A stretch of DNA of 64,000 nucleotides from Methyloversatilis discipulorum (GTDB taxonomy: Bacteria; Pseudomonadota; Gammaproteobacteria; Burkholderiales; Rhodocyclaceae): assembly GCF_018780585.1 (NCBI RefSeq), contig NZ_JADMJL010000038.1, positions 1 through 64,000 of the forward strand, written 5' to 3'. The notes beneath the pieces were generated by a model. It ran no database searches. It was not told the origin of the DNA and saw only the letters and a list, made by a program, of their open reading frames with translations. Shown in pieces: positions 37,101-55,041 of the stretch; positions within the stretch are counted from its first letter, which is position 1, and the number at the start of each line of letters is the position of its first letter. A program made the position numbers and the translations under genes.

Positions 37101-40100
37101 TCAGTCGCCAGCATCCTCAAACGATGGTACAGCCTGGCCGCTGACAGACATCTGCGTCAGCTCGATGTCCTGGTCTTCGCCGAACACACGCAATACGCCG
37201 TCGTCGCAGAGCACGCTGAACCGGTGTTCCCCGGCGGCAATCGCGAGCCCGGTAACGCCGTCGGGCAGCCTCAGCCTGCGCGGTGCGGACGTCATCGGCA
37301 GCAGCGGATTGCCGATGCGGTCGGTCATGCGTCCCCATACGTAGATGTATCCGGACGAATCCAGCGCCATCGAATAGCCTGCAGAGGCGGCGATGTCCGT
37401 GACCGTGCCTGTGGCCGACAGCGGTATGTCGACGGGCGTGTCGGAGACGTCAATACCAGCGACGCCCAGCTGTCCGTGACGGTTGTTCCCCCAGCCCACG
37501 ATCCTGCCGTCCTCGGCAAGCGCGAGGCTGTGCTGGTCGCCCGCGGCCACCCGATGAAACGCGAGTCCGTCGGGATGTTCGAGCTTCCTTGGCCGTACCG
37601 CGTCTGCCTCCGCACCACCTGCCTGGCTGTGGCTGTTGCCGCCCCACGCGACAATCTGGCCGCTGGCGAGCACGGCTACGGCGTGTTGCGCGCCGGCGGC
37701 GAAGTCGATGACCTCTCCGTCGAGAACTACCTTGACCGGCGTGGTCGACGATCCGCCAGGCGTGTCGCCCAGCTGTCCCCGGTTGTTGTCACCCCAGGCA
37801 TAGAGGCTGGCGTCATCGGTCAGGACCAGTCCGAACGCGTCGCCTAGAGCGACGTCCAGGGGCGGCGGCATGCCGTCCGTGTTCATGGCGGTGGGCGTCG
37901 AACGCCACGGAGGCTCGGAGCTGCGTTCACTGCGCTTCAGGGCGGATATGGCCGCCGCGACTGCTCGGGTGGTCAAACCTCCAAGTCCCGACGACGTCGC
38001 ATCGTCGCTCGCCGGTCCCGAGCGCAGGGCCCACTCAAGACCCCACATGTACAACTGGCGGTCACTGCCCACTGCAACGCTACGCGCACCCCGGGCGGCG
38101 ATCGCACGTGCGCCGACCCCGGCTGGCAGGCGGGCGACGCCGGTCTGCGCACTCGCACTGCTAAAGGTGCCGTTGCCAAGCTGTCCGAGGCGGTTGTCGC
38201 CCCATCCTTCGATCTGGCCCAACGGTGCCCGGAAAAGGTTGTGGGCGTCACCGTGGGCGACTGGCGCCACGACCGACATTTGCAATATGTTCGATGTCGC
38301 GGGCTGATCTGCGACCCCCGCCAGAATCCGGCAGAGGCCCACGCGCAGTGCGGTCACGGTCGTTCCGTCGACGCGACAGGTTTCCGGGCTGAGGCTGACC
38401 ATGTCTACCGAGGCGCCGGGCACCGTCAGCACCTCCAGTTGCGCGCTGTCGTGAACCGTGAGTTGGCGCGGTGGTGTAACGAATACGACCGGTGCGACCG
38501 GATCACCGTTGCCGGTATCCGCCTCGTCGGGTTGCCAGGACAGCGTTATGTTTCCTGCTGCGGAATCGGGCCCGGACAGCGCGATCAGATAGTCTGAACC
38601 GTCCGTGATGTCGGCCACCAGACGCAGTTCGCTGCCGGTCGCCTTGGCCAGTCCGCTGCGCACCAGTGTTCCGCCGTCGCGCTCCGAGTACAGCGCTATT
38701 GAGCGCGAGGCGGAGGTGCCTTGAACGATGAAGCGCATCGACGTTGATGCGGTGGCATGGTAGCGCCACCAGATGCTTCCGTTAGTCTCGGTCATGCCGT
38801 GATCGGGCTCGCCCTCTTCGCGGGCCGCGTCGCGTGTGCTGCCGGATGAAAGTCCGGTCACGCCGGAAACGGCCTCGGCATCACGGCGCAGGTCGTTGGG
38901 CGGCGGATCGGGGATCCGTGCAGGGCTGCGGCGCAATACCCGGTCGCCCAGACCGAGCTGACCTTCCTCGTTCTCACCCCAGCCATACAGTTGCCCGTCC
39001 GACAGTTCGACCAGAAGGTGCTGATAGCCCCCGGTTGGAAGCGCGACGACACGCAGCCCTTCCGGCAGCGCGATCGCGCGGAATCCGGGCGGCGTGGCCC
39101 GCAGTTCCTCAATCGTCATTGATGACGACCCGACCGGGCCGCTCACGAGCAGGCGACCATCTGCAGTCTGCAGCGCCGAGAAACCGCTGTGGGCGCTGAC
39201 GGCCACCACCGCAGTGCCGTCTGGCAGGGCAAGTCGTTGCGGCTCCGCAGCGACGACCCACGACGACGTTCCCAACGCGCCGAAGCTGCTTGCTCCCCAG
39301 CCGTAGACCTCACCCGTGTCGGTCAGCGCCAGCGCATGGTCGCTGCCGATCGACATGGAGGTGATCCTCACTCCTGCCGGGAAGTTCACCTTGCGCGCGC
39401 GCGGTTTCACCGCATTGGGCCACTCGTGGTTCAGACTGCCCCATTCGTAAAGACGACCGGCGGCATCCAGCGCAAGCGCATAGCTGCCGCCGGCGGATAT
39501 CGCCACCGGGGCCACGTCTGCAGGCAGGTCGACTCTGGTCCACCAAGGGGAAAGCGGCGGTGCGCTGAGACTCCCCAGTTGACCATAAACGTTGTCACCC
39601 CAAGCGTATATGTTCAGGTCATCGGCAAGCGCCATGCTGAAGTTCGAGCCAGCCGTGATCTGGAGGATGCGGGCGTCGCCGGGAAGCGCCGGCGATGCCT
39701 GGGTCAGTTCCATGCCGGGCGCACCGAGCTCTCCCGAAAAATTGCTTCCCCAGGCACGTATCCGTCCGCTCGTGTCCAGCACTAGCATGTGCAGCTGACC
39801 TGCCGCGACGCCGGCCACCGGGGTATCCACGGCACGTGCGGGCGCCGCACGTAGCCGCGACACGAAGGTGTCGTCTGCAAGAATGCCTCCCTCCCCAAAG
39901 CCCCAGCTCGTCAGATGACCATCGCGCACGGCACGGAAGCTCGCCAGCCAGCCGCCCGCGAAAGGACGCCCGATTGTCAGCAGCAGGCGTGTCCGCCACG
40001 GCGCGAAGTCCGGGTTGCCCGCCTGCGTCACCGTCAGCCGGCAGTATCCGGGGCGCAACGCGCTCAGTTCACCGTCCGCCCACCTGCAGATCGAGGGTGT

Positions 40101-41915
40101 TTCGCTATAGACCTCCGGGGCAAGGCCAGAACTCAAGTGCAGCGGCAGCGCATGCACCACGTCAGCACCTGCGTCGAGCAGCACGATCGGCACCGTGGCG
40201 CCGGTCAGAAGGCGTTGCGGCTGTCTGGGGTCGAGCTGCCAGTTCAAGCGGATGTCTCCGCTGCTGCCCTCCGGATCGGGCCACCAGACCGAAGTCGGGG
40301 TAAGGGAGTGCCCGTCGACGCTGATCTGGTACTCGGTACCCGCCTCGACCTCGAAAGTGAGCCGACTTGTGCGCAGGTCGCCGTCGTCATTGTTCGAAGC
40401 CAGTCTCGTAAGCGTTCCGAGTTCTTCGCCGCGGAATATCGTCAGCAGCGTATCGAACCCGCTGCCCACAAGGTCGAACTCCGCAATACCGCTGCGCGGC
40501 GCGGTCCAGCGCCACCATACCGTGCGCCCCAGGTGGGCATTGTTGCGGACGTCTTCCCCGTTCTCGGATGTCGCGCCAGCGTTGAAGCCGACTGCGGTGC
40601 CGCTTTCCCCCGCCAGTTCGTAGCGTTCATCGAAGCGATCGTTGTACGCGGCGACACGGGCCCGCTGGCGGCTCGAGTCGCGCAGGCTGCCGTCGGCCAG
40701 GGTGAGCAGGTATCCGGGCACGTCCATGTCCACCGACACGACGCCACGGTGTACGCGCGCTTCGCCGAGCGGAGTGTCGAGGAACTGTTCGAAGCAGTAC
40801 ATCGAGGCCTCGTCGTCGAGGAGGCAGGCGTCACGTTCCCGACCGACATCCAGTTCTACGATGGGTCGGGCGATCGATGCCGGCAGGATGACGGGCAGTC
40901 CTTTGGGAAGCACCTCGGCGTGCGCGCCTGCCGGCCACCGGAAGATGCGGCCGTCGGCGGCCAGTGCCAGGTCGAACCAATATCCGGCCGCTACCTGCAC
41001 GATCGAGGCGTCCCCCGGAAGCTGAACCTGGACAGGCGCATATGCGGGGTCATGATGGGCGGAAGCACTCACGCGGAACACCGTTCCATTGCCATCCAGA
41101 AGCAGGACGTGATGTCCGTTCGAGTCGATGTCCACAACCGGGGCATCCGTCGGCAGTGTGTAGTGCTGCGGCGAGGCATAGACGGGCCAGCTGTCGCCGA
41201 CCCTGTTTATGTCGCTCAATCCCCATGCGTAAAGCCGTCCGCTCTCGCCGATCGCCATGCTGAACTCGGCATCTCCCGAGCCTGGCGGCAGGTCGCGCGC
41301 CAGCACGCGGATCGCACGGTCGCCGTCGGGAAGCTGAACGCGGACGGGCTCGTCTCGGCTAGTGAGCGTGCCATCGCCGAGCGCCCCTCGTTGATTGTTT
41401 CCCCAGGCATGGATGCCGCCCTCATCGTCAATCGCGAGCGTGTGACTCTGCGCGCGCGAGAACTGCAGCAGACGCGCATCGGTGCGGAGGCGGGATGGGA
41501 GGGCAAAGTCACTGCGCGTGTCTAGTGCATAGGCCCGGCGTCTTGAATCGAGTCCGGCACCGCATAGCAGACCGTACTGGCAGAGGGCGAAGTCCACGCG
41601 CGGCATCACGCGGAGATGGCGACGTACCGATTCGCTCTCCTGACCCTCCCTGTCTGACAGGGTGGCGTCGATGCGGCACAGCCCGCCGCGGTGGATCTGC
41701 AGCAATCCGGATTCGTCCACACTGCATACCGCCGGGTCCGGCGTCGTGAGCTGGACGGGCTGCCCGCCCGCGCTGATGGCTGCCACGCGCTGGGCAGGTT
41801 CGCCCAAGGTGAGGCGCCACGGCGCCTCCAGGGTGACGGAAGGCCCAGCCGCGACCGTGAAGCGGCAACCGAGCAACAGGGCAAGCGCGAGAAACAAATG
41901 GATTCTGGATGTCAT
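37101..41915 (-). CDS. Giant secreted RCC1-repeat protein
   Basis: A 1604-residue exported protein of unknown role, starting at MTSRIHLFLALALLLGC (signal peptide). It appears as three units. Each opens with a bacterial Ig-like segment carrying a Cys pair (about residues 35-90, 590-660 and 1210-1270) and continues with RCC1 propeller blades recognised by WG-x(2-4)-G-LG cores such as HAWGNNQRGALG, YAWGDNVYGQLG and VGWGNNRHGQLG; I count about 13. The first two units end in PPC-like (bacterial pre-peptidase C-terminal) jelly-roll domains (about 420-575 and 1060-1200). No anchor or sorting tail is visible at the C-terminus. It stands alone between two operons. Confidence 0.85.
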   Translation of the reverse strand: MTSRIHLFLALALLLGCRFTVAAGPSVTLEAPWRLTLGEPAQRVAAISAGGQPVQLTTPDPAVCSVDESGLLQIHRGGLCRIDATLSDREGQESESVRRHLRVMPRVDFALCQYGLLCGAGLDSRRRAYALDTRSDFALPSRLRTDARLLQFSRAQSHTLAIDDEGGIHAWGNNQRGALGDGTLTSRDEPVRVQLPDGDRAIRVLARDLPPGSGDAEFSMAIGESGRLYAWGLSDINRVGDSWPVYASPQHYTLPTDAPVVDIDSNGHHVLLLDGNGTVFRVSASAHHDPAYAPVQVQLPGDASIVQVAAGYWFDLALAADGRIFRWPAGAHAEVLPKGLPVILPASIARPIVELDVGRERDACLLDDEASMYCFEQFLDTPLGEARVHRGVVSVDMDVPGYLLTLADGSLRDSSRQRARVAAYNDRFDERYELAGESGTAVGFNAGATSENGEDVRNNAHLGRTVWWRWTAPRSGIAEFDLVGSGFDTLLTIFRGEELGTLTRLASNNDDGDLRTSRLTFEVEAGTEYQISVDGHSLTPTSVWWPDPEGSSGDIRLNWQLDPRQPQRLLTGATVPIVLLDAGADVVHALPLHLSSGLAPEVYSETPSICRWADGELSALRPGYCRLTVTQAGNPDFAPWRTRLLLTIGRPFAGGWLASFRAVRDGHLTSWGFGEGGILADDTFVSRLRAAPARAVDTPVAGVAAGQLHMLVLDTSGRIRAWGSNFSGELGAPGMELTQASPALPGDARILQITAGSNFSMALADDLNIYAWGDNVYGQLGSLSAPPLSPWWTRVDLPADVAPVAISAGGSYALALDAAGRLYEWGSLNHEWPNAVKPRARKVNFPAGVRITSMSIGSDHALALTDTGEVYGWGASSFGALGTSSWVVAAEPQRLALPDGTAVVAVSAHSGFSALQTADGRLLVSGPVGSSSMTIEELRATPPGFRAIALPEGLRVVALPTGGYQHLLVELSDGQLYGWGENEEGQLGLGDRVLRRSPARIPDPPPNDLRRDAEAVSGVTGLSSGSTRDAAREEGEPDHGMTETNGSIWWRYHATASTSMRFIVQGTSASRSIALYSERDGGTLVRSGLAKATGSELRLVADITDGSDYLIALSGPDSAAGNITLSWQPDEADTGNGDPVAPVVFVTPPRQLTVHDSAQLEVLTVPGASVDMVSLSPETCRVDGTTVTALRVGLCRILAGVADQPATSNILQMSVVAPVAHGDAHNLFRAPLGQIEGWGDNRLGQLGNGTFSSASAQTGVARLPAGVGARAIAARGARSVAVGSDRQLYMWGLEWALRSGPASDDATSSGLGGLTTRAVAAAISALKRSERSSEPPWRSTPTAMNTDGMPPPLDVALGDAFGLVLTDDASLYAWGDNNRGQLGDTPGGSSTTPVKVVLDGEVIDFAAGAQHAVAVLASGQIVAWGGNSHSQAGGAEADAVRPRKLEHPDGLAFHRVAAGDQHSLALAEDGRIVGWGNNRHGQLGVAGIDVSDTPVDIPLSATGTVTDIAASAGYSMALDSSGYIYVWGRMTDRIGNPLLPMTSAPRRLRLPDGVTGLAIAAGEHRFSVLCDDGVLRVFGEDQDIELTQMSVSGQAVPSFEDAGD

Positions 41916-42286
41916 GACGGGCCGCCGGAAGCAGCGGGTCTGCAACCCGGGCTGCGGAAACTTGAGCGGTCAGCATGATGGCATGAGGCGATGTCGAAAC
42001 GATGTTCCATGCACGCCCGTCGAATGGGGAGGGCGACGCGCTTCCCGCGCAGCGGCCGTCTGGCCGGTGTTTCCGAGGCGCCGCAACGGCTGAATGAGAA
42101 CGTGAATTTTTGTGCCGGCGGCATAGCGGCCGGCGGGGCGGCTGTTGGCCTGGCCACGAAACGCGGCTTCTCCCCGACGTGAGCGGACCACCCGCACGAC
42201 GGACAGCGGCACCTGACCAGCGTCCGAGAACATCGACGAGCACGGCAAGATGTCGGGGTTGCTGCGAGTACTGCCCTGAAGAAAGC
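41916..42286. other. Gap between the RCC1 gene and amiR-like gene
   Basis: The 371-bp gap holds the promoter of the RCC1 gene (reading minus) and the 3' flank of the amiR-like gene. No convincing gene is present. A 63-codon open frame at 41991-42182 has no start signal or family look. The last 70 bp carry a decayed ftfL end, listed separately. Confidence 0.5.
42217..42279 (+). pseudogene. Remnant of the 3' end of an ftfL gene
   Basis: Read in the frame starting at 42217, the DNA encodes PASENIDEHGKMSGLL followed by RVLP and a stop. The end of FtfL in this window (36930-36990) encodes [18 protein letters not shown] and a stop. Eleven of the residues align with one two-residue gap, and the nucleotides match in the same pattern. 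An in-frame stop lies just upstream at 42214, so this is a broken fragment. Duplication or replacement of an old ftfL copy is likely. Confidence 0.65.
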
Positions 42287-42913
42287 TTACCCCGACAGTA
42301 TCTCGTCCGCATGAATGATCGCCCGCGCGATTTCCTCGGTTGCCACGCGCTTGCTCATCGCCTGTTCGCGGATGATCTTGTAGGCCTCGGCGTCGCTGAC
42401 GCCGCGGGTGCGCATCAGGATGGCCTTGGCGTCGTTGATCTGGTTCACGCTGAGCAGCTTCTGCTCCAGCCGCTGCACCCTCTTCTTGTAGCCGCGCATC
42501 TCCTGCGTCAGGCCGACGGTGAGCACCAGTGAGGCGAGCACGCCGGTCGAGCGCAGTGGGGCGCTGAGCACGCCGGTGGCACCCAGGCGCAGCATCACTT
42601 CGAAGATGGTCGGGTTCTCGTAGCCGACGACGGCGATCACCGCGGGCGGTTGTTCGAAGTTGCTGAAGTTCAGCGGCGCGTGCATCTCGTTGGACTGGAT
42701 CGCGTAGTACACGACATCGACGTTGTCCGGGATGTCCTGCACCGGCGGCCAGAAGGTCTGCACCTGGCAGCCTATGCGTTTCAGTTGCTGGATCAGCACC
42801 TCGCCGTCGGCGTCGCGCGGATGCAGTACGACGATGCGCAGATTGCGCAGCTGGGTCAGGAATTCCGGCGTGATCCGCTTGCTGCGTACGCCTGTGCGCG
42901 GCGGACTGCTCAC
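42287..42913 (-). CDS. ANTAR-domain antiterminator (AmiR/NasT-like)
   Basis: A 208-residue RNA-binding regulator. The N-terminal half (about residues 20-130) is a receiver-like domain. The usual phosphoacceptor position (VDVVYYAIQ) has no aspartate that I can identify, as in AmiR, so control is probably by protein binding. The C-terminal ANTAR domain (about 145-205) has the family pattern NDAKAILMRTRGVSDAEAYKIIREQAM. ANTAR proteins bind two-hexaloop RNA and prevent terminators from forming. It starts with GTG overlapping the stop of the amiC-like gene, so the two are made together. Its likely targets are the leaders at 44161 and 49867. Confidence 0.88.
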   Translation of the reverse strand: MSSPPRTGVRSKRITPEFLTQLRNLRIVVLHPRDADGEVLIQQLKRIGCQVQTFWPPVQDIPDNVDVVYYAIQSNEMHAPLNFSNFEQPPAVIAVVGYENPTIFEVMLRLGATGVLSAPLRSTGVLASLVLTVGLTQEMRGYKKRVQRLEQKLLSVNQINDAKAILMRTRGVSDAEAYKIIREQAMSKRVATEEIARAIIHADEILSG

Positions 42914-44079
42914 TTCGATTCCTCTTCGCTCGCATTGACGCGCAGCCGCGTGCTCCAGTCGTCGAAGGAATGGCTGACCAGATAGGGGTCGGCGTCGACG
43001 CCGCCCGGTGTCTCGGCCAGTATCGTGAACTGCCCCTCGCTGTTCACCCGGCCGATGCGCGGGTAGAGGCGGGCGTGGTGGTTGTGCGGCAGGATGCGGA
43101 TGCGGCCCTGCGGCGCGTCGAACTCGCGCCCGAGGATGTGCGGCAGCAGGATGTCATGTTCGTCACTGCCCGCTTCGCGGAAGGCGTCGGCGAACACATG
43201 CACCTGGTAGTAGGACGACTCCCAGCTCATGTTGGGCTGCACCTCGTTGCCGAACAGCTTGCGGAACAGCGCCACGCAGTCGCGGTTGCGCGGGGTGTCG
43301 ATCGACTGGAAATAGGTGCCCGCCGTGTAGTGACCTTCGGCCAGCCGGATACCCATTTCGGATACTTCTTCCTCGCTGGTGCACAGGCTGGCGATCGGCA
43401 TCTTCTTCGGATCGAAACCGGCGTCCGCGTAGGCCTGGTAGAGCATGCGGGTGGTCTTGCCGACCATGGTCGAGAAGATGAAGTCCGGCTGCTTGGCCTT
43501 GATGTCTTTCATGATCGGCGTGAAGGCGCTTTCCTTCGCGTCGAGATGCACATAGCGCTCGCCCACTTTGGCGCCACCCTGACGGTGGTGCACGAAGTCG
43601 CTCATGATGCGGTTCGACTCGTAGGGAAAGATGTAGTCGCTGCCGATCAGGTACACCCGCGCGCCGAAACGGGTCGACATGTAGTCGGCAAGCAGAGCGC
43701 TGTTCTGGTTCGGCGCACCGCCGGTGTAGATGATGTTGTTCGAGAACTCGAAGCCCTCGTACATGGTCGGGCAGAACAGGAGGCGGTTCCATCTTTCGAC
43801 CACCGGCAGCACCGCCTTGCGCGTGCTCGACATGTAGCAGCCGAAGATGACATTGACCTTGTCATCCTGCACCAGACGGGTCGCGAGCGAGCGGAATTGC
43901 TGCGGATTCGACTGCGGATCGTAGTAGACCGGAACCAGCTCCCGGCCGTGGATGCCGCCGGCATCGTTGATCTCGCGGATCGCGAAAAGCGTTCCGGCGA
44001 GCATCGTGTTTTCGATGCGCGATGTCACGCCCTCGCGCGAGAACAGAACACCGACCTTGATGGGATCGTTTGTGGACAC
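42910..44079 (-). CDS. Cytoplasmic amide/urea-binding sensor (AmiC-like)
   Basis: A 389-residue type I periplasmic-binding-fold protein of the UrtA/FmdD/AmiC group, but without any signal peptide: it begins MSTNDPIKVGVLFSREG, so it should stay in the cytoplasm as Pseudomonas AmiC does. AmiC holds AmiR inactive until an amide binds. Shared family blocks include FGCYMSSTRKAVLPV and VYLIGSDYIFPYES. The start is uncertain: GTG at 44079 gives this N-terminus, TTG at 44100 would add seven residues, and neither has a clear ribosome-binding site. It is divergent from dmfA1 and overlaps the ANTAR gene by 4 bp. Confidence 0.82.
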   Translation of the reverse strand: MSTNDPIKVGVLFSREGVTSRIENTMLAGTLFAIREINDAGGIHGRELVPVYYDPQSNPQQFRSLATRLVQDDKVNVIFGCYMSSTRKAVLPVVERWNRLLFCPTMYEGFEFSNNIIYTGGAPNQNSALLADYMSTRFGARVYLIGSDYIFPYESNRIMSDFVHHRQGGAKVGERYVHLDAKESAFTPIMKDIKAKQPDFIFSTMVGKTTRMLYQAYADAGFDPKKMPIASLCTSEEEVSEMGIRLAEGHYTAGTYFQSIDTPRNRDCVALFRKLFGNEVQPNMSWESSYYQVHVFADAFREAGSDEHDILLPHILGREFDAPQGRIRILPHNHHARLYPRIGRVNSEGQFTILAETPGGVDADPYLVSHSFDDWSTRLRVNASEEESK

Positions 44080-44125
44080 GGGTTTGCGGCCGGGTGACAA
44101 AAAACGTGATCGATACTAACAGAGC

Positions 44126-44154
44126 TTGACCGCGCGAAAGAGGCTCACTAAGAT
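44126..44154 (+). promoter_or_regulatory. Sigma70-type promoter of the DMFase operon
   Basis: TTGACC (44126-44131), a 17-bp spacer and TAAGAT (44149-44154). This predicts transcription starting about 44161, so P1 of the leader RNA begins almost at the 5' end of the transcript. The promoter lies in the short gap shared with the divergent amiC-like gene. Confidence 0.7.
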
Positions 44155-44160
44155 TCACTC

Positions 44161-44247
44161 AACGCTTCGCCCCGCCAACACTGCCGGGCGCGAAGACGGG
44201 CAAAAAGGCCTGCACGGATCTCCGGATCCGGCAGGCCTTTTTGTTTT
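44161..44247 (+). ncRNA. Leader RNA 1: two-hexaloop attenuator before dmfA1
   Basis: P1 is a long stem: 44165-44170 pairs with 44190-44195, then CCCG (44171-44174) with CGGG (44185-44188), a C-C mismatch, and a C-G pair closing the 6-nt loop AACACU (44177-44182). P2 is GGGC (44198-44201) with GCCU (44208-44211), closing the 6-nt loop AAAAAG. The 3' strand of P2 is also the 5' arm of the terminator, so P2 and the terminator exclude each other. This is the architecture bound by ANTAR antiterminators. A second copy at 49867 supports the structure by compensatory changes. Confidence 0.78.
44207..44247 (+). terminator. Intrinsic terminator in leader 1
   Basis: GGCCUGC (44207-44213) pairs with GCAGGCC (44231-44237), and inside it CGGAUC (44215-44220) pairs with GAUCCG (44225-44230) around a UCCG tetraloop, with one bulged A. 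UUUUUGUUUU follows. It lies between the promoter and dmfA1 and no plus-strand gene precedes it, so it can only act as an attenuator of the DMFase operon. Confidence 0.85.
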
Positions 44248-44355: not shown

Positions 44356-44796
44356 GTGATTCCGATCCCCAGGAAAGGCACGCCGGAACGCGACCGGCTG
44401 ATCCAGGAACACCTCGAGTGCGTGAAGTCCATGGCCGGCGTGGCCGGCTTCTCGGTGCTCAAGTGCGCGACACCCGGTGACACCACCCACATCAGCGGCG
44501 GCGTGCACGAAGACCCCTTGCTCAAGCGCGTGCTGCTGCGCATGCGCGGTGCGTCGCCCAAAGGCAAGCTCATCGTCATCTGCACCAAGATCGACGCGGA
44601 ATGGCGCATCGGGCGTCTGTCCGGCATCCGCGGCGTGCCGCCGGTGTTCGTCGACGACACCGTCTACACCAGCGAGCAGGACATCCAGCACGCCATCTTC
44701 CTGATGCGTCTCGACGAGATGGAAGAGACCGACGGCATGCCGGAGCACTACCACGAAGGCTACAAGCGGCGCGACGACAACTGGCCGGTGACCTGA
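44356..44796 (+). CDS. dmfA1: N,N-dimethylformamidase small subunit
   Basis: Small subunit of the amidohydrolase that splits N,N-dimethylformamide into dimethylamine and formate. 146 residues from the GTG at 44356, which has AAGGAG six bases upstream; an upstream in-frame ATG at 44293 lies in the leader and is unlikely. The known small subunit is about 132 residues. The protein is soluble, and the C-terminus is rich in Asp, Glu and His (MEETDGMPEHYHEGYKRRDD). It is directly upstream of the large subunit, as in characterised dmfA1A2 operons, and behind the attenuator leader. Confidence 0.85.
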   Translation: MIPIPRKGTPERDRLIQEHLECVKSMAGVAGFSVLKCATPGDTTHISGGVHEDPLLKRVLLRMRGASPKGKLIVICTKIDAEWRIGRLSGIRGVPPVFVDDTVYTSEQDIQHAIFLMRLDEMEETDGMPEHYHEGYKRRDDNWPVT

Positions 44797-44903
44797 TCAC
44801 CGCCCAGCGCTGACGCGCGGCTGCGGCCGCACCCGTCTTCACCCCATCTACTGCAAAAGCATCCGAGCCCCCGGAGGGCGGCGCTCGGCCTGGAGAAATG
44901 ACC

Positions 44904-47300
44904 ATGTGTGCAATGCGACTGACCGGATACGCCGACAAGTTCAGTGTCCATCCGGGCGACAAGATCAAGTTCTACGTCAATTGCGACGGACCGAAGAAGT
45001 ACAGCGCGTCCATCGTGCAGATGATCAACGGCGACACCAATCCGCGTGGTCCGGGCTTCATCGAGAAGGCGGTGAAGGCGGACTGCGAGGGCGTCTACGA
45101 CGGTATCAAGCAGGTCGTCTACGGCGGCTCGTACGGCTTCGTGGCGGATGCGCCGCAGCTGAAGCCGGACAGCTTCACGCTGCAGTGCTGGATCTGGCCG
45201 ACTACGCCGAAGACCGACAAGCGCTACTGGAAGCACGGCGCCCAGGGCTTGGTGACGAAATGGTCGGACGGCAAGGGTTACGGCCTGTTCATCAATACCG
45301 ACGGCTGTGTCGAGCTGCGTATCAATGGCGAGACCTACAGCACCGGCGCGCCGCTGCGCGACCACGCCTGGCACGTCATAGCCGCCAGTTTCGACGCGAA
45401 GACCGGCGAGGTGGTGCTGTATCACGAGCCTCAGGTGGTGTATGCGCTGGACCCCGAAATCCCGCCGGTCAAGGCGAGCTTCAAGGGCAAGGTCGAACAC
45501 ACTGACTTGCCGCTGGTGATCGCCGGTTACGTCGACCATGTCGAGCCGGGGCCGCTGGGCCTGTCGTCGCTGCCGCAGGGCGTCATCGTCGGCGGCCACT
45601 ACAACGGCAAGATAGACAGCCCGCGCCTGTGCAGCCGCGCGCTGTCGCGCTTCGAGATCGAAATGATGAAGGGCGGCGCGCAGCCCGGCCTGACCGAGCG
45701 CCGCAACGCCGGCCCGACCGGCGCGCTGTCGGAAGCCATCGTCGCCGCCTGGGACTTTTCCGACGGCATCGACACGCTGGTCGCGAAGGACGCCGGCCCC
45801 TACCGCTTCGACGCCACGCTCGTTAACTGCCCGACGCGCGCGCTGACCGGCTACAACTGGGCCGGCCAGACCTTCGACTGGAAGGTGGCGCCGAAGGAAT
45901 ACGGTGCCATCCACTTCCACGACGACGACCTCGACAACGCGCGCTGGGAAGTGAGCTTCGAATGGACCGTGCCGGCCGACATCAAGAGCCGCTTCTACGC
46001 CGCCAAGCTCACCACGCCGGAAGGTGACGAGGACTACGTCCCGTTCTGGATCGTGCCGAAGATCGGCCAGGAACAGTCGAAGATCGCGGTCATGGTGCCC
46101 ACCATCAGCTACATGGCCTACGCGAACGAGCACGTCGCGTGCAACGCGGGCGGCGCCGAACTGTTCGTCTATCGCGTGCCCATCATGCAGCAGCAGAACA
46201 TGTTCCTCGCCGAACACCGCGAGTACGGCGGCTCGATCTACGACACCCACACCGACGGCAGCGGCATCTGCCTGTCGTCGCGACTGCGTCCCATCCTGAG
46301 CATCCGCCCCAAGTACGACCACTTCCTCGCGCAGGCGCCGTGGCAGTACCCGGCCGATCTGCACCTGATCTGCTGGCTGGAACAGATGGGCTACGAGTAC
46401 GACGTGTTCACCGACGAGGACGTGACCTACGACGGTCTGGCCCGGCTGGAGAACTACAACGTCATCATCACCGGCTCGCACCCCGAGCACAATTCGGGCA
46501 CCCAGCTCGACGCGCTGCACAACTACACGCAGCGCGGGGGCCGCCTGATGTATATGGGCGCGGATGCCTGGTACTGGGTGCATTCCTTCCATCCGGCCTA
46601 CGACGGACTGGGCCGCGGCATCGTCACCGAAATGCGCCGCTGCGAATCCGGCATCCGCACCTGGCGCGCCGATCCGGGCGAGTACTACCACCAGGGAACG
46701 GGCGAACTGGGCGGCATGTGGCGTTACCGCGGCCGCTACCTGCACTCGGTGGCGGGCACCGGCATGTCGTCCGAGGGCTTCGACATCTCGTCCTACTTCT
46801 CGCGCACGCCGGAAAGTCTGGATCCGCGCGTCAGCTGGGCCTTCGACGGCATCAGCTACGAGGAGAACCTCGGCAACTTCGGTCTGGTCGGCGGCGGTGC
46901 GGCCGGTCTGGAACTGGACATCGTCGACACCATGCTGGGTTCGCCGCCGCACATCCTCACCGTCGCCACGTCGGCCGGCCGTCACACCGAGGCCTACCTG
47001 CTGGTGATGGAGGATTTCGGCTTCAACCAGCAGGGGCTTGACGGCACCGTGCATCCGCGCGTGCGCGCCGACATCACCTTCCACGAAACACCCAATGGCG
47101 GGGGCTGCTTTGCCTTCAGCTCCATCGCCTACTGCGGTTCGCTGCCGTGGAACAACTGCGACAACAACATTTCGCGTCTGACCAAGAACGTGCTCGACCG
47201 CTTCATGCTGGACGGCCCGCTGCCGGCCGCGCCGAAGGAAGCGTACAAGCACCGCGGTCGCGCGGATTACGAGTCGCCGGCGCTGGCGTCGAAGGGCTGA
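44904..47300 (+). CDS. dmfA2: N,N-dimethylformamidase large (catalytic) subunit
   Basis: Catalytic subunit, 798 residues from the ATG at 44904 (GGAG eight bases upstream; ATG at 44898 is too close). The N-terminal region includes a concanavalin-like lectin domain (about 70-260, with SFTLQCWIWPTT). The second half is the amidohydrolase core. The Paracoccus enzyme holds one iron with two tyrosines and one glutamate. Here the GSHPEHNS block (His526, Glu528) matches the glutamate site, and Tyr403, Tyr406 and Tyr446 are candidates for the tyrosine ligands. The enzyme is cytoplasmic, with no signal peptide. Close relatives acting on other formamides cannot be excluded. Confidence 0.88.
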   Translation: MCAMRLTGYADKFSVHPGDKIKFYVNCDGPKKYSASIVQMINGDTNPRGPGFIEKAVKADCEGVYDGIKQVVYGGSYGFVADAPQLKPDSFTLQCWIWPTTPKTDKRYWKHGAQGLVTKWSDGKGYGLFINTDGCVELRINGETYSTGAPLRDHAWHVIAASFDAKTGEVVLYHEPQVVYALDPEIPPVKASFKGKVEHTDLPLVIAGYVDHVEPGPLGLSSLPQGVIVGGHYNGKIDSPRLCSRALSRFEIEMMKGGAQPGLTERRNAGPTGALSEAIVAAWDFSDGIDTLVAKDAGPYRFDATLVNCPTRALTGYNWAGQTFDWKVAPKEYGAIHFHDDDLDNARWEVSFEWTVPADIKSRFYAAKLTTPEGDEDYVPFWIVPKIGQEQSKIAVMVPTISYMAYANEHVACNAGGAELFVYRVPIMQQQNMFLAEHREYGGSIYDTHTDGSGICLSSRLRPILSIRPKYDHFLAQAPWQYPADLHLICWLEQMGYEYDVFTDEDVTYDGLARLENYNVIITGSHPEHNSGTQLDALHNYTQRGGRLMYMGADAWYWVHSFHPAYDGLGRGIVTEMRRCESGIRTWRADPGEYYHQGTGELGGMWRYRGRYLHSVAGTGMSSEGFDISSYFSRTPESLDPRVSWAFDGISYEENLGNFGLVGGGAAGLELDIVDTMLGSPPHILTVATSAGRHTEAYLLVMEDFGFNQQGLDGTVHPRVRADITFHETPNGGGCFAFSSIAYCGSLPWNNCDNNISRLTKNVLDRFMLDGPLPAAPKEAYKHRGRADYESPALASKG

Positions 47301-47375: not shown

Positions 47376-48356
47376 ATGGAATGCATGACCGAACATCCGG
47401 TGCATCTGCACCGCCGGCCATTGGGGAGCGGCGCATTCGACGTCGCCGCCTTCCGCGGGCTGGATTTTTCCCGCGCCGAGGACGATGCGATCTGGACGCG
47501 CGAGTGGGTATGCGTGGGCAGCGCGCTCGATATGCCGGCCGCCGGCGACCTGCTGCCCTTCACCGTCGGCGACCATGCCATCCATGTTCAGCGCCTGCCG
47601 GACGGCGGCCTGGCCGGCCGCTTCAACAAGGCGCAGCACGGTGGCTGTCGCGTGGTGCCGCTGCAGTGCCAGCAGGGCGCGAAGACGCCGTGTTCCTTCA
47701 CCTCTTGCGGTCACAGCCTGGATCGTCCGGCGATTGCCGCCGGCGAGCTGGGCGAGGGCACGCCCGAGATGTACCAGTATCTCGGCCTGCGGCCTGAGCG
47801 TCTGCTGCCGGTGCGCACCGCGAGCTGGGGGCCGTTGCTGTTCGTCAGCCTCGATCCGCACGGGTCGTCGTTCGGGCCGACCGCCCGAGCGCTGACGTCG
47901 ACGCTACCGGCGTGGGCCGGTGTGCAGGCGGACAGCCATCGCAGCCGCTGGATCGCCTGCGACGCCAACTGGAAGCTGGTCGCCCAGCATCTGCTGGCGG
48001 CCTCCGCCACGCTTGTGTCGGGCGACGTCGCGCTGTGCCGTGCCGACGCCGAAGGTCGGGCGGCGCTGCTGTTTCCGAATCTGGTGCTGCTGTCATCCGC
48101 CCCAGGCTGCTGTGCCGTCGTGCTGCAGCCGGTATCGCTGACCCGCACGCTGTGCCGCGTCGCCATCTTCGGGGGCGACGACGCGACGCTTTCATGGGAG
48201 ACGCTGCTGAACGCCCGTCTCGCCGCCGCCGCGGAGGCGCAGTCGGCGATCGAAGGCGGCGGCATCGGCGGGCGCGGCTGCGACCCCGCCACCCGGCTTG
48301 ATGCCGGCGGACGATGGATCGAGACACAAGTGATGGCGTGCATCGCTGCGCGCTGA
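47376..48356 (+). CDS. Degenerate Rieske oxygenase alpha-subunit-like protein
   Basis: A 326-residue protein colinear with ring-hydroxylating/choline-monooxygenase-type alpha subunits. The Rieske region aligns from WVCVGSALDMPAAGD to the second ligand pair, but the expected C-x-H is AQH (first Cys lost) and the expected C-P-Y-H-G-W is CSFTSC (second His lost). The catalytic-domain start CDANWKLVAQHLL matches the family, yet the two histidines of the usual Y-H-x4-H iron site are absent. It should therefore not work as a standard oxygenase. It follows dmfA2 on the same strand. Confidence 0.75.
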   Translation: MECMTEHPVHLHRRPLGSGAFDVAAFRGLDFSRAEDDAIWTREWVCVGSALDMPAAGDLLPFTVGDHAIHVQRLPDGGLAGRFNKAQHGGCRVVPLQCQQGAKTPCSFTSCGHSLDRPAIAAGELGEGTPEMYQYLGLRPERLLPVRTASWGPLLFVSLDPHGSSFGPTARALTSTLPAWAGVQADSHRSRWIACDANWKLVAQHLLAASATLVSGDVALCRADAEGRAALLFPNLVLLSSAPGCCAVVLQPVSLTRTLCRVAIFGGDDATLSWETLLNARLAAAAEAQSAIEGGGIGGRGCDPATRLDAGGRWIETQVMACIAAR

Positions 48357-48387
48357 AGGCAGATCACGCACACCGGGAGATATCCAT

Positions 48388-49077
48388 ATGCATGCACTGA
48401 TGGAAACAACGCTGCAGCTCGACGATGCGGTGGCCGCTTACCACGACGGCGATCTGGCGACCGCGGCGCAGCTGTTCGAAACCTTGGCGGATGAAGGCTG
48501 TGTCGAGGCGCAGGCCTGGGTCGGCGCGCTGCACGCGAATGGCGAAGGCGTGCCGGCCGATCTGGCGACGGCCTTTCGCTGGTATCTGCGTGCCGCGGAA
48601 GGCGGCCATGTGCCGGCGCAGACCAATGTCGGCGCCATGCTGATGATGGGCAACGGCACGCCGGCCGATCCGGAACGCGGGCTGCATTGGCTGCGCGCGG
48701 CAGCAGAGGCCGGGGACGCGATGGCGCAGAGCAATCTGGCGACGCTTTATTTCAAGGGGCAGGGCACCGCGCAGGACGAGGCGCAGGCGGCGCACTGGTA
48801 CCGGCAGGCGGCCGGGCAGGGGCACTTTCCCTCGCAGGCGCGGCTGGGCTTCATGTACGCCAACGGCCTGGGCGTGGACAAGGACAGGGCGCAGGCCTTC
48901 GCCTGGCTGTCGCTGGCTGCACAGCACGGCGTGGGCAGCGCGCTCAACGCGCTCGAAGGCATGATCGGCCAGATGTCGGCCGAAGAGAAACAGAAGGGGG
49001 CCGCGCTGTTCGATCAGTGGCGCAGCCGCACCGCAGCGGTGTCGTCGCCGGCACGGCTGATTCCGGTTCCGGGGTGA
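48388..49077 (+). CDS. Sel1-repeat (TPR-like) protein
   Basis: A 229-residue helical-repeat protein with about four to five Sel1-like repeats (residues 35-180), for example AQAWVGALHANGEGVPAD, AQTNVGAMLMMGNGTPAD, AQSNLATLYFKGQGTAQD and SQARLGFMYANGLGVDKD. Such repeats mediate protein-protein contacts. No signal peptide is apparent, so it is probably cytoplasmic. It starts 31 bp after the Rieske-like gene and is likely part of the DMFase operon. A role as assembly or binding factor is conjecture. Confidence 0.8.
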   Translation: MHALMETTLQLDDAVAAYHDGDLATAAQLFETLADEGCVEAQAWVGALHANGEGVPADLATAFRWYLRAAEGGHVPAQTNVGAMLMMGNGTPADPERGLHWLRAAAEAGDAMAQSNLATLYFKGQGTAQDEAQAAHWYRQAAGQGHFPSQARLGFMYANGLGVDKDRAQAFAWLSLAAQHGVGSALNALEGMIGQMSAEEKQKGAALFDQWRSRTAAVSSPARLIPVPG

Positions 49078-49081
49078 TGCG

Positions 49082-49402
49082 ATGAGCTATAGCGTGCAGC
49101 AGATCAAGTTCGAGTGCCTCACCTACATCAAGGAGTTCGGCGCGCGCATGGACGAGTGGTCCATAGGCATGGCCGACGACCCGGAACACGCGCTGTTCGG
49201 CCTGTGCGGCGTCGATCCCGAGCGCGACATCTGGCTGTGGAAGCCGGCGTTGTCGGTGAACGCCGCGCGCACCGTGGTCGACTTCATGACCGGCCGCTAC
49301 CGGCTGCATCCGGCGCGTGCGTCGAGTGCACCGGGCGCAGGCCGTTGTGTGTTCATGTACCGAAGATCGACGACTGCGGATGAAGACGACACGATCTTGT
49401 AG
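49082..49402 (+). CDS. Hypothetical protein at the end of the DMFase operon
   Basis: A 106-residue protein starting 4 bp after the Sel1 gene, hence probably co-translated. It begins MSYSVQQIKFECLTYIKEFG, is acidic, has a conserved-looking WSIGMADDPEHALFGLCGVDPERDIWLW block, and shows no signal or membrane segment. The stop codon lies within a REP element, so the C-terminal tail may have been altered by its insertion. I do not recognise a family. Confidence 0.6.
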   Translation: MSYSVQQIKFECLTYIKEFGARMDEWSIGMADDPEHALFGLCGVDPERDIWLWKPALSVNAARTVVDFMTGRYRLHPARASSAPGAGRCVFMYRRSTTADEDDTIL

Positions 49403-49831: not shown

Positions 49832-49860
49832 TTGACGCACCGCAGCAGCCTTCCTATCAT
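49832..49860 (+). promoter_or_regulatory. Sigma70-type promoter of the urtA-like/urease transcript
   Basis: TTGACG (49832-49837), a 17-bp spacer and TATCAT (49855-49860). The predicted start near 49867 leaves only a few nucleotides before P1 of leader 2, the same geometry as at the DMFase promoter. Confidence 0.75.
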
Positions 49861-49866
49861 CGATTC

Positions 49867-49953
49867 AACTTTCCGCTCCGCCAGCATTGCCGGCGCGGAA
49901 CAAGGCAAAAGGGCCTGCCCTGGATCTCCGGATCCGGGCAGGCCTTTTTTTTT
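49867..49953 (+). ncRNA. Leader RNA 2: two-hexaloop attenuator before the urtA-like gene
   Basis: P1: 49871-49876 pairs with 49895-49900, then CCG (49878-49880) with CGG (49891-49893), a C-C mismatch, and a C-G pair closing the loop AGCAUU (49883-49888). P2: AGGC (49903-49906) with GCCU (49913-49916), closing the loop AAAAGG. Compared with leader 1, the P1 outer stem differs at two base pairs (C-G to U-A and U-A to C-G) and P2 at one (G-U to A-U), all keeping pairing. P2 again shares its 3' strand with the terminator. Confidence 0.8.
49912..49953 (+). terminator. Intrinsic terminator in leader 2
   Basis: GGCCUGCCC (49912-49920) pairs with GGGCAGGCC (49936-49944), and GGAUC (49922-49926) with GAUCC (49931-49935) around a UCCG tetraloop, with one bulged U. 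Nine U residues follow. It lies 87 bp before the urtA-like start codon, downstream of a promoter, so it works as an attenuator. Confidence 0.88.
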
Positions 49954-50040: not shown

Positions 50041-51216
50041 ATGAAGAATCAAATCAGGCGCGACATCATCAAAGGCCTTGCGCTCGCATCCGTCGCAGGT
50101 CCGTGGATGGTGCGCAACGCCATGGCCGACGATACGGTCAAGGTCGGCATCCTGCACTCGCTGACCGGCACCATCGCGCTGGCCGAAGCGTCGGTGGTCG
50201 ACGCCGAGAAGCTGGCCATCGACGAGATCAACGCCGCCGGTGGCGTGCTTGGCAAGAAGATCGTACCTGTGGTCGAGGACGGCGCCAGCGACTGGCCGAC
50301 CTTCGCCGAGAAGGCGCGCAAGCTGCTCGATCGCGACAAGGTCGCGGCGGTGTTCGGCTGCTATACCTCGGCGTCGCGCAAGGCGGTGCTGCCGGTGTTC
50401 GAACAGATGAAGGGCCTGCTGTACTACCCGACCTACTACGAAGGCCAGGAACAGTCGCCGAACATCCTCTACACCGCACACGAAGCGACCCAGCAGTGCA
50501 TACAGGCCTGCAACTGGCTGCTGGCCAATCGCGGCAAGACGGTCTATCTGATCGGTTCCGACTACATCTGGCCGCGCGTCACCAACAAGATCGCGCGCCC
50601 GACCATAGTCAAGGGCGGCGGCAAGGTGCTGGGCGAGGAATACCTGCCGCTGGGCAGCACCAACTTCGGTTCGACCATCAACAAGATCAAGGCCACCAAG
50701 CCCGACATCATTCTGAGCACCGTGGTCGGGGGCTCCAACGTCGCCTTCTACAAGCAGCTCAAGGCGGCCGGCGTGAACTTCAACAAGACCACGGTGATGG
50801 CGCTGGCCGTGTCGGAAGAGGAAGTGTCGGGCATCGGCAAGGAGAACGTGCAGGACGTGCTCACCTGCATGAGTTATCTGCAGAGCCTGGACAACCCGGC
50901 CAACAAGAAATTCGTCGCCGCCTTCAAGGCCAAGTACGGCGACAAGCGCGTCACCGGCGACACGCTGGCCAGCGCCTATACCGCGGTCTACCTGTGGAAG
51001 ATGGCCGTCGAGAAGGCCAAGAGCTTCGACGTCGACAAGGTGGTCGCCGCCTCGGCCAACCTCGAGTTCGAAGGACCGGAAGGCAAGGTGAAGTTCCACG
51101 CGACCAACCACCACCTGTGGAAACAGGCGCGCATCGGTTCCTTCACCGCCGACGGTCAGGTCAAGCTGATCTACGAATCGCCGCTGATCGAACCCAATCC
51201 CTACCCGACGCTGTAA
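50041..51216 (+). CDS. Urea/amide ABC transporter substrate-binding protein (UrtA-like)
   Basis: A 391-residue periplasmic binding protein of the UrtA/FmdD group. Unlike the AmiC-like paralogue, it has a signal peptide (MKNQIRRDIIKGLALASVAG, with cleavage after NAMA). Family blocks include VGILHSLTGTIALAEASVVD, FGCYTSASRKAVLPVF, YYPTYYEGQE and LIGSDYIWPR. No urtBCDE permease or ATPase genes accompany it. Placement behind the attenuator and before ureE suggests urea or an amide as ligand. Confidence 0.85.
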   Translation: MKNQIRRDIIKGLALASVAGPWMVRNAMADDTVKVGILHSLTGTIALAEASVVDAEKLAIDEINAAGGVLGKKIVPVVEDGASDWPTFAEKARKLLDRDKVAAVFGCYTSASRKAVLPVFEQMKGLLYYPTYYEGQEQSPNILYTAHEATQQCIQACNWLLANRGKTVYLIGSDYIWPRVTNKIARPTIVKGGGKVLGEEYLPLGSTNFGSTINKIKATKPDIILSTVVGGSNVAFYKQLKAAGVNFNKTTVMALAVSEEEVSGIGKENVQDVLTCMSYLQSLDNPANKKFVAAFKAKYGDKRVTGDTLASAYTAVYLWKMAVEKAKSFDVDKVVAASANLEFEGPEGKVKFHATNHHLWKQARIGSFTADGQVKLIYESPLIEPNPYPTL

Positions 51217-51223
51217 GCCGCAC

Positions 51224-51280
51224 GCCGCCCGCGGGCGGCTGCGCTGCTGGTGGCTGTCCCGCGACATCTGCGGGACAGCC
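51224..51280 (+). promoter_or_regulatory. Two hairpins between the urtA-like gene and ureE
   Basis: A 16-bp perfect palindrome (51224-51239) is followed by an 11-bp stem GGCTGTCCCGC...GCGGGACAGCC (51252-51262 with 51270-51280, 7-nt loop). Neither has a U-tract. They probably mark mRNA processing or stabilise the abundant binding-protein message relative to the urease genes. Confidence 0.55.
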
Positions 51281-51310
51281 CGGACCCGACCGCAAGGAAG
51301 AGACCGAACA

Positions 51311-51802
51311 ATGCTCAGACTGACAGACATCGTCGGCAATGCGTCCGACCCGGACATTGCCGACCGGCTGCATCACATCGAACACGACGGCGGCGTCGAG
51401 CGCGTGCGCCTGTCGCGCAACGACCTGGCCCGCCGCCGTCAGCGCCTGGTGACCGACCGCGGCACCGAACTGGCGCTGATGCTGGACCGCGGCGCACAGC
51501 TCGAGAACGGCTCCGTGCTGCTGCTCGAACCGGGGCGCGCCGTGCTGGTGATGCTCGACGAGCCGCAGTGGCTGGTGCTGCGCGCCGCGCACGCCGCTGG
51601 CGCGCTGGAGATAGGCTACTTCGCCGGCAATATGCACTGGAAGGTGCGCTTCGAAGCCGACTGCCTGTGGATCGCGCTCGAAGGCCCGCGCGAGGGCTAT
51701 CTGAAGCGCATGACGCATCTGCTGGCGCGCGGCGACGCGACCGTGCTCGATGCGCCGGCGCAGGGCGGAACACGCTATCTCGCCGTTCCCCATGCGCACT
51801 GA
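51311..51802 (+). CDS. ureE: Urease accessory protein UreE
   Basis: Nickel metallochaperone, 163 residues. The N-terminal domain is followed by the metal-binding domain with the conserved dimer-interface His in IGYFAGNMHWKV (about residue 113). The C-terminal tail has only two histidines (PHAH), so it lacks the long His-rich tail of Klebsiella UreE. The 3' end abuts ureF. Confidence 0.88.
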   Translation: MLRLTDIVGNASDPDIADRLHHIEHDGGVERVRLSRNDLARRRQRLVTDRGTELALMLDRGAQLENGSVLLLEPGRAVLVMLDEPQWLVLRAAHAAGALEIGYFAGNMHWKVRFEADCLWIALEGPREGYLKRMTHLLARGDATVLDAPAQGGTRYLAVPHAH

Positions 51803-51803
51803 C

Positions 51804-52547
51804 ATGAACGCACCGCACGCGCCTTTTCACATTCCGTCGCCCGACGATGGCGGCGGCGACGCGATCGGCATGCTCGGCATGCTGCAGTTCGCCGACAGCT
51901 TCTTTCCCAGCGGTGCCACCTCGTTCTCGTGGGGCCTGGAGTCGCTGAAGCTCGACGGCAAGGTTGGCGGCGCCGAACAGGTGTTCGAGCTGCTGTGCAG
52001 CCACATCGAACAGCGCTGGGCTGGATTCGACCGGCCGCTGATGCAGGCGGCGCGCACCGCCTGGTCGCAGCGTGGCGCGGCCGCGCTGGCCGAGGCGACC
52101 GAACTGGACCGCCTGTGCGAGGCGATGAACCTCGTGCGCGGCTGGCGCGACGCGAGCCGTCGGCTCGGCTTCACGCAGCTTCGCGTGCACGCCGATCTCG
52201 GTCTCGGCATCGCCCAGGTCTATCTCGACCAGGTGCGCGCCGCCGGTCTGCCCGGGCATCTGCCGGTGGTGCAGGGCCTCGTCTGGGGCGCCTACGGACT
52301 GTCGGCCTCCGGCTGCGACGCGATGGCGGCCAGCGGCCTGTGCACCACGGTGGTGGGTGCCGCGCTGCGCATGGGTCTGATCGGTCACACCGAAGGTCAG
52401 CGCCTGTTGGCGCGCACGCGGCCGCTGATCGCGCGCGTCATCGACACGACGCCGCCCTCGACCGACGAACTGTGGAACGGCGCACCGGCGCTCGACATCG
52501 CCGCCATGCGCCACGAGCCGCGCAATGCCCGGCTGTTCGCGAACTGA
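51804..52547 (+). CDS. ureF: Urease accessory protein UreF
   Basis: Acts with UreD and UreG to deliver nickel and CO2 to the apo-urease active site. 247 residues starting at the ATG at 51804, directly after the ureE stop (an ATG at 51792 would overlap it). Family blocks LGMLQFADSFFPSGATSFSWGLE and WGAYGLSASGCDAMAASGLC are clear. The C-terminus is the conserved PALDIAAMRHEPRNARLFAN. Confidence 0.93.
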   Translation: MNAPHAPFHIPSPDDGGGDAIGMLGMLQFADSFFPSGATSFSWGLESLKLDGKVGGAEQVFELLCSHIEQRWAGFDRPLMQAARTAWSQRGAAALAEATELDRLCEAMNLVRGWRDASRRLGFTQLRVHADLGLGIAQVYLDQVRAAGLPGHLPVVQGLVWGAYGLSASGCDAMAASGLCTTVVGAALRMGLIGHTEGQRLLARTRPLIARVIDTTPPSTDELWNGAPALDIAAMRHEPRNARLFAN

Positions 52548-52582
52548 GTGCTGACTGACATGCAGAAGAGAGGAGGCACCCC

Positions 52583-53293
52583 ATGCTGCTGACACCGACC
52601 GAACTCGAAAGACTGACGATATTCAACGCCGCCGAACTGGCGCGCCGGCGCCGCGCGCGCGGCCTGAAGCTCAATTGTCCAGAGGCGATCGCGATCATCG
52701 TCGACGACATTCTCGAGGGGGCACGCGACGGCCGCACGGTGGCCGAACTGATCGGCTTCGGCTCGCAAATTCTGAACAGCGACGACGTGCTGCCCGGCGT
52801 CGCGGCGCTGATGCCGATGATCCAGGTCGAAGCCAGCTTTCCCGACGGCACCAAGCTGGTGACCGTGCATGACCCGATACGTCCGGGCGCGGGTGCACAG
52901 ACCGAGACAGCGGGCACACCGCTGCGCACGCCGGGCGAAATCATCCCGGCCGAGGGGAAGATTGAACTGAACGCCGGTCGCCGCCGCGCCACGCTGCGCG
53001 CGCTGAACACCGGCGACCGGCCGATACAGGTGGGCAGCCATTTCCACTTCTTCGAGGTGAACCGCGCGCTCGAATTCGACCGCGCCCAGGCCTGGGGCAT
53101 GCACCTCGACATCGCTGCCGGCACCGCGGTGCGCTTCGAGCCCGGTGAGGACAAGGAAGTGACGCTGGTCGCCTTCGGCGGCAGCGGCGAGGTGTTCGGT
53201 CTTAACCGTCTGGCCGAGGGCCCGACCGGCGACGCCACCGGCCTGCCGGACGCGCTGGCGCGCGCACGCCAGGCCGGATTCCGCGGCGCCTGA
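52583..53293 (+). CDS. ureAB: Fused urease gamma-beta subunit (UreAB)
   Basis: A 236-residue structural subunit: residues 1-100 are UreA (gamma, with [26 protein letters not shown]), followed by a short linker and UreB (beta, about 115-220, beginning [17 protein letters not shown]). Separate ureA and ureB genes are usual in Proteobacteria; fusion is known in Helicobacter and some others. There is no frameshift: the reading frame is continuous and both domains are complete. An AGAGGAGG site precedes the ATG. Confidence 0.93.
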
Positions 53294-53324
53294 GCGCTGT
53301 CATCGACAACAGGGAGAACACGAC

Positions 53325-55037: not shown

Positions 55038-55041
55038 TGCC

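Follow-up and report, generated by a model that had tools for sequence, protein, structure and literature searches.

A candidate AmiC/AmiR-type antitermination leader upstream of a dimethylformamidase-like operon in Methyloversatilis

Results

The window, by which we mean the whole 64,000-nucleotide stretch of DNA analysed here, derives from Methyloversatilis discipulorum, a methylotrophic bacterium. It contains, on the minus strand, an amiC-like gene for a ligand sensor (42910-44100) and an amiR-like antiterminator gene (42287-42913), whose start overlaps the end of amiC. The AmiR-like protein consists of an AmiR_N (121 bits) and an ANTAR domain (47 bits) and matches AmiR of structure 1qo0 with an E value of 2e-25; the AmiC-like protein matches 1pea with 288 bits (E 1e-84) and shows no signal peptide by eye. 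An AmiR_N-ANTAR protein paired with a cytoplasmic AmiC (the signal peptide again judged by eye) is the combination that characterizes AmiC/AmiR systems. A class-wide search with a fragment of Pseudomonas aeruginosa AmiR found matches in 4 of 369 genomes, none closer than 33% identity, and of 399 genomes searched within the order, 23 had AmiR relatives with E values up to 1e-20, the present genome being included in both counts.

Divergently from amiC-amiR, the plus strand encodes a dmfA1-like small subunit (44356-44796; 146 amino acids) and a dmfA2-like large subunit (44898-47300; 800 amino acids) of a dimethylformamidase (DMFase)-like enzyme, followed at 47376-49402 by three further genes for a Rieske-like protein (a weak match), a Sel1-repeat protein and a protein of 106 amino acids. 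The order of these three genes is kept in the loci of the genus and in a locus of another genome of the same phylum (L250 of G622), which reads dmfA1-dmfA2-Rieske-like-Sel1-small protein-ureE-ureF-urease and in which no leader was found. The first of the three (47376-48356) encodes 326 amino acids with weak similarity to Rieske oxygenases and no Pfam match, and is kept in the cluster. In the window the cluster is followed by urtA, encoding a urea-binding protein (50041-51216, plus strand), and by the urease genes (51311-55683). Here ureE comes directly after urtA (50041-51310) and urtBCDE are absent from that place; a UrtD above its cut-off is encoded elsewhere in the genome (G000:C67:115738-116460).

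The region between amiC and dmfA1 had been described in an earlier note as a good promoter followed by a strong intrinsic terminator that is overlapped by a small stem and preceded by a longer one, and these features were all recovered. A sigma-70-type promoter (TTGACC-17-TAAGAT, 44126-44154, plus strand) is followed by the stem-loop P1 (44165-44195; fold and covariation) with the hexaloop AACACT at 44177-44182, by the stem-loop P2 (44197-44212; fold of 44155-44225) with the hexaloop AAAAAG at 44202-44207, and by an intrinsic terminator (44202-44246) of 18 bp with one bulge, a UCCG loop and a U tract, the hairpin proper extending over 44202-44242. In the fold, the 5' arm of the terminator is made up of the P2 loop and the 3' side of P2. 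The fold energy of 44161-44247 is -56.8 kcal/mol (z = -8.1), a value matched by none of 200 shuffled sequences; folded separately, P1, P2 and the terminator reach -17.5, -6.2 and -31.9 kcal/mol, respectively. In the most stable fold of P1, an A-U pair closes inside the hexaloop. The promoter is kept before P1 in leaders of the genus: the motif TTGACN-17/18-TANNAT stands at a near-constant distance from P1 in 20 of the 20 genus leaders picked up by our script, which missed 2 of the 22: the leader before urtA in the window and the urtA leader in L107.

A second leader of the same kind (49865-49950, plus strand) precedes urtA, with its own promoter (TTGACG-17-TATCAT, 49832-49860), a P1 loop AGCATT (49883-49888), a P2 loop AAAAGG (49907-49912) and a terminator. 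Its DNA is 81% identical to the dmf leader, and it contains a single TTG, at the end of the P1 loop. Because a homologous leader stands before urtA and the urease genes, the dmf and urea genes are predicted to form one regulon.

The earlier note had likened the arrangement before dmfA1 to the targets of AmiR, NasR and EutV. With respect to architecture this holds: two hexaloop stems of which the second overlaps an intrinsic terminator, an A at loop position 1 (A1) in both stems of both window leaders, a constrained distance between the hairpins (see below) and an ANTAR protein gene in the genome are all features of ANTAR leaders. That gene, which the note had put 1.2 kb away, is the amiR-like gene; it stands beside the leader, separated from P1 by the amiC-like gene and a total of about 1.25 kb. 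Where the likeness fails is loop position 4, which is A (A4) and not G (G4) in both loops of both window leaders.

Searches with two covariance models, R1 and R2, yielded paired leaders in 11 of 11 AmiR-bearing genomes of the genus. R1 was built from seven dmf leaders only, and its dmf matches are therefore given by construction; it detected the dmf and the urtA leader in every one of 11 genus genomes with E < 1e-14 (22 matches), the independent result being the recovery of the urtA leader in all 11. The R2 alignment included neither of the window leaders, although other genus leaders were part of it. When 150 first-look candidates of each genome were scored with R2, the present genome gave two sites (E 2.6e-6 and 3.6e-6), the next candidate having an E value of 0.19, and two sites at E < 1e-3 were obtained in every one of the remaining 10 AmiR-bearing genomes of the genus. 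Among the same number of candidates, no site with an E value up to 0.05 was seen in either of the two genus genomes without AmiR, nor in G622, whose DmfA2 is 80% identical and which does contain an AmiR_N protein; weak extra sites (E 0.024-0.043) occurred in G003 (one), G004 (three) and G008 (one). The present genome thus has two copies of the leader, before dmfA1 and before urtA, and no third copy stands out. Across 13 genus genomes, the leaders, AmiR and a close dmfA2 are present together in 11 and all missing in 2. A1 is found in all genus leaders, including those recovered by R1 independently of the script, and A4 occupies both loops of the remaining genus leaders as well.

Leaders of the same layout were detected by script in 15 of 26 non-genus loci from the order-wide AmiR search and in 39 of 80 named loci of another collection, 7 of which are from the genus and some of which represent the same genomes as the other set; several of the leaderless named loci break off close to the beginning of urtA. 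The downstream genes that could be identified were urtA (by tblastn), the aliphatic amidase gene amiE, or genes for an NCS1-type permease. Seven of ten proteins tested scored above the NCBIfam cut-off for AmiE, the protein of L087 having only a Pfam CN_hydrolase match, and the downstream protein of L126 is a fragment with no match. Homologous leaders before amiE or urtA, beside amiC-amiR, are present in other Burkholderiales, and since amiE is the established target of AmiR, the leaders in front of it tie the element to a system already known. Among the 26 non-genus loci, 12 have amiC directly facing urtA; in the genus the two are separated by dmfA1A2 and the three further genes, and both operons are preceded by their own leader, which suggests that the leader was copied. 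The leaders before NCS1-type permease genes are located at position 2892 of L137 and position 14466 of L154; a target of this class is not named in the parts of the ANTAR literature considered here.

A scan for the layout (a pair of hexaloop stems of which the second lies within a terminator, with A demanded as the first loop base and 15-28 nt allowed between the loops) gave 82 matches in 2.07 Mb of AmiR-linked loci, 80 of them with 18-20 nt between the loops. These 80 correspond to 53 distinct sequences; 64 loci have a match, some of them representing the same genome twice. In 12 dinucleotide shuffles only 0-3 matches each were obtained, with a mean of 0.25 at 17-20 nt. The scan has strict criteria: the urtA leader of the window, detected by both R1 and R2, escaped it. 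In 36 distinct leaders, 52 cells were changed on both sides of a pair compared with 11.8 in shuffles, and any slid register gave at most 9 such cells; because the script that selected these leaders requires stems, their percentage of paired cells is inflated towards structure. The seven dmf leaders on their own, taken straight from their loci, show 13 covarying cells against 4.4. P1 covaries around an invariant loop block. The C-G closing pair of each loop is invariant in the 36 leaders, as is A1, which the script demanded there, and 25 of them share a mismatch, mostly C.C, one pair below the P1 loop. In L256 (G137), two hexaloop-terminator elements stand in tandem, at 11216 and 11698.

According to the published consensus, ANTAR targets have A1 and G4 in both loops; in EutV, G4 stacks on Tyr164 and in P2 is also bonded to Arg142, Lys149 and Glu160, and G4 was found important in both EutV and NasR (PMC3369931, PMC8934654, in the parts considered). 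In the 67 distinct AmiR rows that have a leader, P1 carries G at position 4 in 36 cases and A in 31, the latter including all 11 rows from the genus, and P2 position 4 is mostly A among the relatives. On the AmiR tree, position 4 changed five times by parsimony, at least three changes being forced by starred branches. A residue code, in which an Arg near EutV 142-144 would specify G4 and Asn143 would specify A4, was considered and rejected: its prediction failed in G200 and G137, which combine Arg with A4, as do L132, L137, L140, L142, L145, L153, L170, L178 and L182, and given the five changes on the tree we do not claim such a code. AmiRs of the Asn143 class with a leader all have A4, and together with L134 (Lys143) this class forms one set of 20 rows on one side of a branch with 100/99 support; no leader was found in the locus L074 (G270). 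These counts suggest that, for the AmiR branch, the A1/G4 rule excludes too much, and with A4 in P1 of 31 of the 67 rows, a search with G4 fixed would probably miss many leaders.

The sensor of the genus is distinctive in its putative binding pocket. The urea pocket of UrtA includes Tyr141 and Ser274 (PMC10392092, in the part considered), and at both positions, counted from an alignment with 8hic, the window AmiC has Cys. The corresponding residues of P. aeruginosa AmiC are Tyr104 and Thr233. Among 95 distinct AmiCs compared, Cys104 and Cys233 are present in all 11 from the genus, while the 84 others have Tyr104 without exception and either Thr233 (80) or Ser233 (4); in 12 more distant or partial rows, outside the 95, Cys occupies neither position. 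Six AmiC positions are fixed in the genus and absent from the 84 others, and three of these (104, 233 and 285) are otherwise at least 95% constant. As two pocket positions that are elsewhere Tyr and Thr or Ser have become Cys, the inducer of the genus AmiC may differ from that of other AmiCs.

The large subunit DmfA2 matches Paracoccus DMFase with 531 bits; the best PDB profile match of DmfA1 is the DMFase small subunit 6lvb_B, a weak one (E 0.024), and as a single sequence DmfA1 had no match in the PDB. DmfA2 keeps the iron ligands Y399, Y440 and E521 as well as H519. Of the features that define DMFase, a 2-Tyr-1-Glu iron site with the essential residues H519 and N547, only the last is missing, being replaced by Asp. 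Asp547 was found in 5 of 5 loci of the window's clade tested and Asn in all 17 others, and in DMFase the exchange N547A abolished activity on DMF (PMC7686228, in the part considered). Since Asp stands in place of the Asn547 that is essential in the proven enzyme, 'DMFase' is used here as the name of a family; this residue and the adjoining urease genes indicate that the substrate may not be DMF, and an amide that releases urea would be a fair guess. In Paracoccus aminophilus, use of DMF was not linked to a second dmfA1A2 locus with 34% and 40% identity (PMC4543880, in the part considered). Among the DMFase relatives examined, no leader was detected outside the genus dmf cluster: in the fetched flanks of 19 distinct loci outside it (L027-L034, L235-L245; L110 is the same place as L027), none had a leader, with a shorter upstream reach in the five loci (L238, L240-L243) whose match starts at least about 270 residues into the query, and with L030, L032 and L033 being paralogs inside the genus.

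Discussion

The leader before dmfA1 is most likely, with a probability of roughly 0.85, an AmiC/AmiR attenuator that was co-opted for a DMFase-like operon. Its layout, the overlap of P2 with the terminator, the adjacent AmiR and its AmiC partner, the covariation, the co-occurrence in the genus and the leaders before amiE all argue for an AmiR-type antitermination leader. The claim of the earlier note that a DMFase operon is preceded by an ANTAR-type attenuator is thereby supported from sequence as far as the leader is concerned, but for the enzyme it has to be weakened to DMFase-like.

An intergenic region between divergent genes may contain a plain terminator that stops stray upstream or antisense transcription, in which case the P1 and P2 folds would be incidental, and the palindromic hairpin, which also matches R1 on the minus strand, would suit such a role. 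However, the hairpin is placed between a conserved promoter-like site and dmfA1, P1 covaries around its invariant loop block, the loop spacing is nearly constant, and the leaders track the presence of amiR in the genus, all of which makes this reading improbable. Slightly less probable still is a genuine ANTAR target that responds to a different ANTAR protein. Two other ANTAR genes exist in the genome (contigs C77 and C73) and could in principle act on the leaders, but it is amiC-amiR that adjoins the leader and is present or missing together with it in all 13 genus genomes, and homologous leaders are found near amiR in other families. Attenuation by a leader peptide or a riboswitch is the least probable explanation, since the dmf leader has no ATG, GTG or TTG before the U tract, neither the window nor any of six further loci had a match to an Rfam family at gathering threshold, the matches to Thr and Phe leaders scored 19-22 bits against a gathering score of 55 and are judged to be chance, and the short leader fits the ANTAR layout.

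An AmiC/AmiR-controlled leader would operate as follows. Transcripts would start just 5' of P1 from a constitutive-type promoter. Without inducer, AmiC would hold AmiR and P1 would form; the 5' arm of the terminator, with the P2 loop, would pair into the terminator, and transcription would stop at about 44242-44247, before dmfA1. Binding of a small amide-type ligand to AmiC would free AmiR, whose ANTAR dimer would bind the hexaloops of the nascent RNA and hold P2, so that the terminator would be blocked and the dmfA1A2 operon read. Expression of urtA and the urease genes would depend on the same switch. The release of AmiR by ligand, its binding to RNA and the antitermination are inferred here by analogy with the known AmiC/AmiR system; that the inducer differs from that of other AmiCs is suggested less strongly.

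Antitermination by AmiC/AmiR is already known, and so are ANTAR leaders before urea transporters. The locus shares with the P. aeruginosa amidase system the sensor and antiterminator families and the leader with two hexaloops, the second stem lying in the terminator, and relatives described here precede amiE itself. It differs in its targets, a DMFase-like operon and urtA-urease, in the divergent orientation of amiC-amiR, in having Cys for the Y104 and T233 of AmiC, and in the A at loop position 4, the P. aeruginosa leader being A1/G4 according to the part of PMC3369931 considered. The same part of that study (Ramesh et al. 2012) predicted ANTAR RNA substrates upstream of urea transporters, so that urtA is a target of an already predicted kind, but its model keeps A1/G4 in both loops. 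The EutV and NasR leaders likewise share the dual hexaloops, the overlap of P2 and terminator and the constrained loop spacing, whereas their loops are A1/G4 with both positions important, and the sensing domains of their regulators differ (PMC3369931, PMC8934654, in the parts considered). New relative to the known switch would be the A4 loops, the type of target and possibly a retuned sensor.

The regulator described for dmfA1A2 in P. aminophilus is DmfR, a LuxR-family activator (Dziewit 2010, via PMC4543880), which in the part considered controls the DMFase operon in response to DMF and is presented as a transcriptional activator, not an antiterminator. In agreement with the earlier note, which knew of no such case, searches of open-licence PMC papers yielded no report of antitermination for DMFase; PMC11381386, in the part considered, adds nothing on this subject.

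It is tempting to go further and to propose, tentatively and with somewhat more doubt than confidence, that Methyloversatilis duplicated an AmiC/AmiR switch of the amidase type and retuned all of it (Y104C and T233C in the sensor, N547D in the hydrolase, A1/A4 in the loops) for a new amide, which may be DMF or may be a urea-linked one that supplies urease on hydrolysis. If so, the DMFase family would have its first operon under antitermination control, and the recognition rule of ANTAR proteins would be enlarged to A1 and a purine at position 4. It would also show how a family of amidases noted for breaking down a solvent pollutant was captured by an existing amide-sensing RNA switch through a leader of about 90 nt. 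The retuning of the sensor is directly testable, as it comes down to two pocket residues and one inducer.

Beyond amiR, the minus strand of the window contains a long open reading frame (37101-41945; 1614 amino acids) with repeated WG.N motifs, which by eye resemble RCC1-type repeats.
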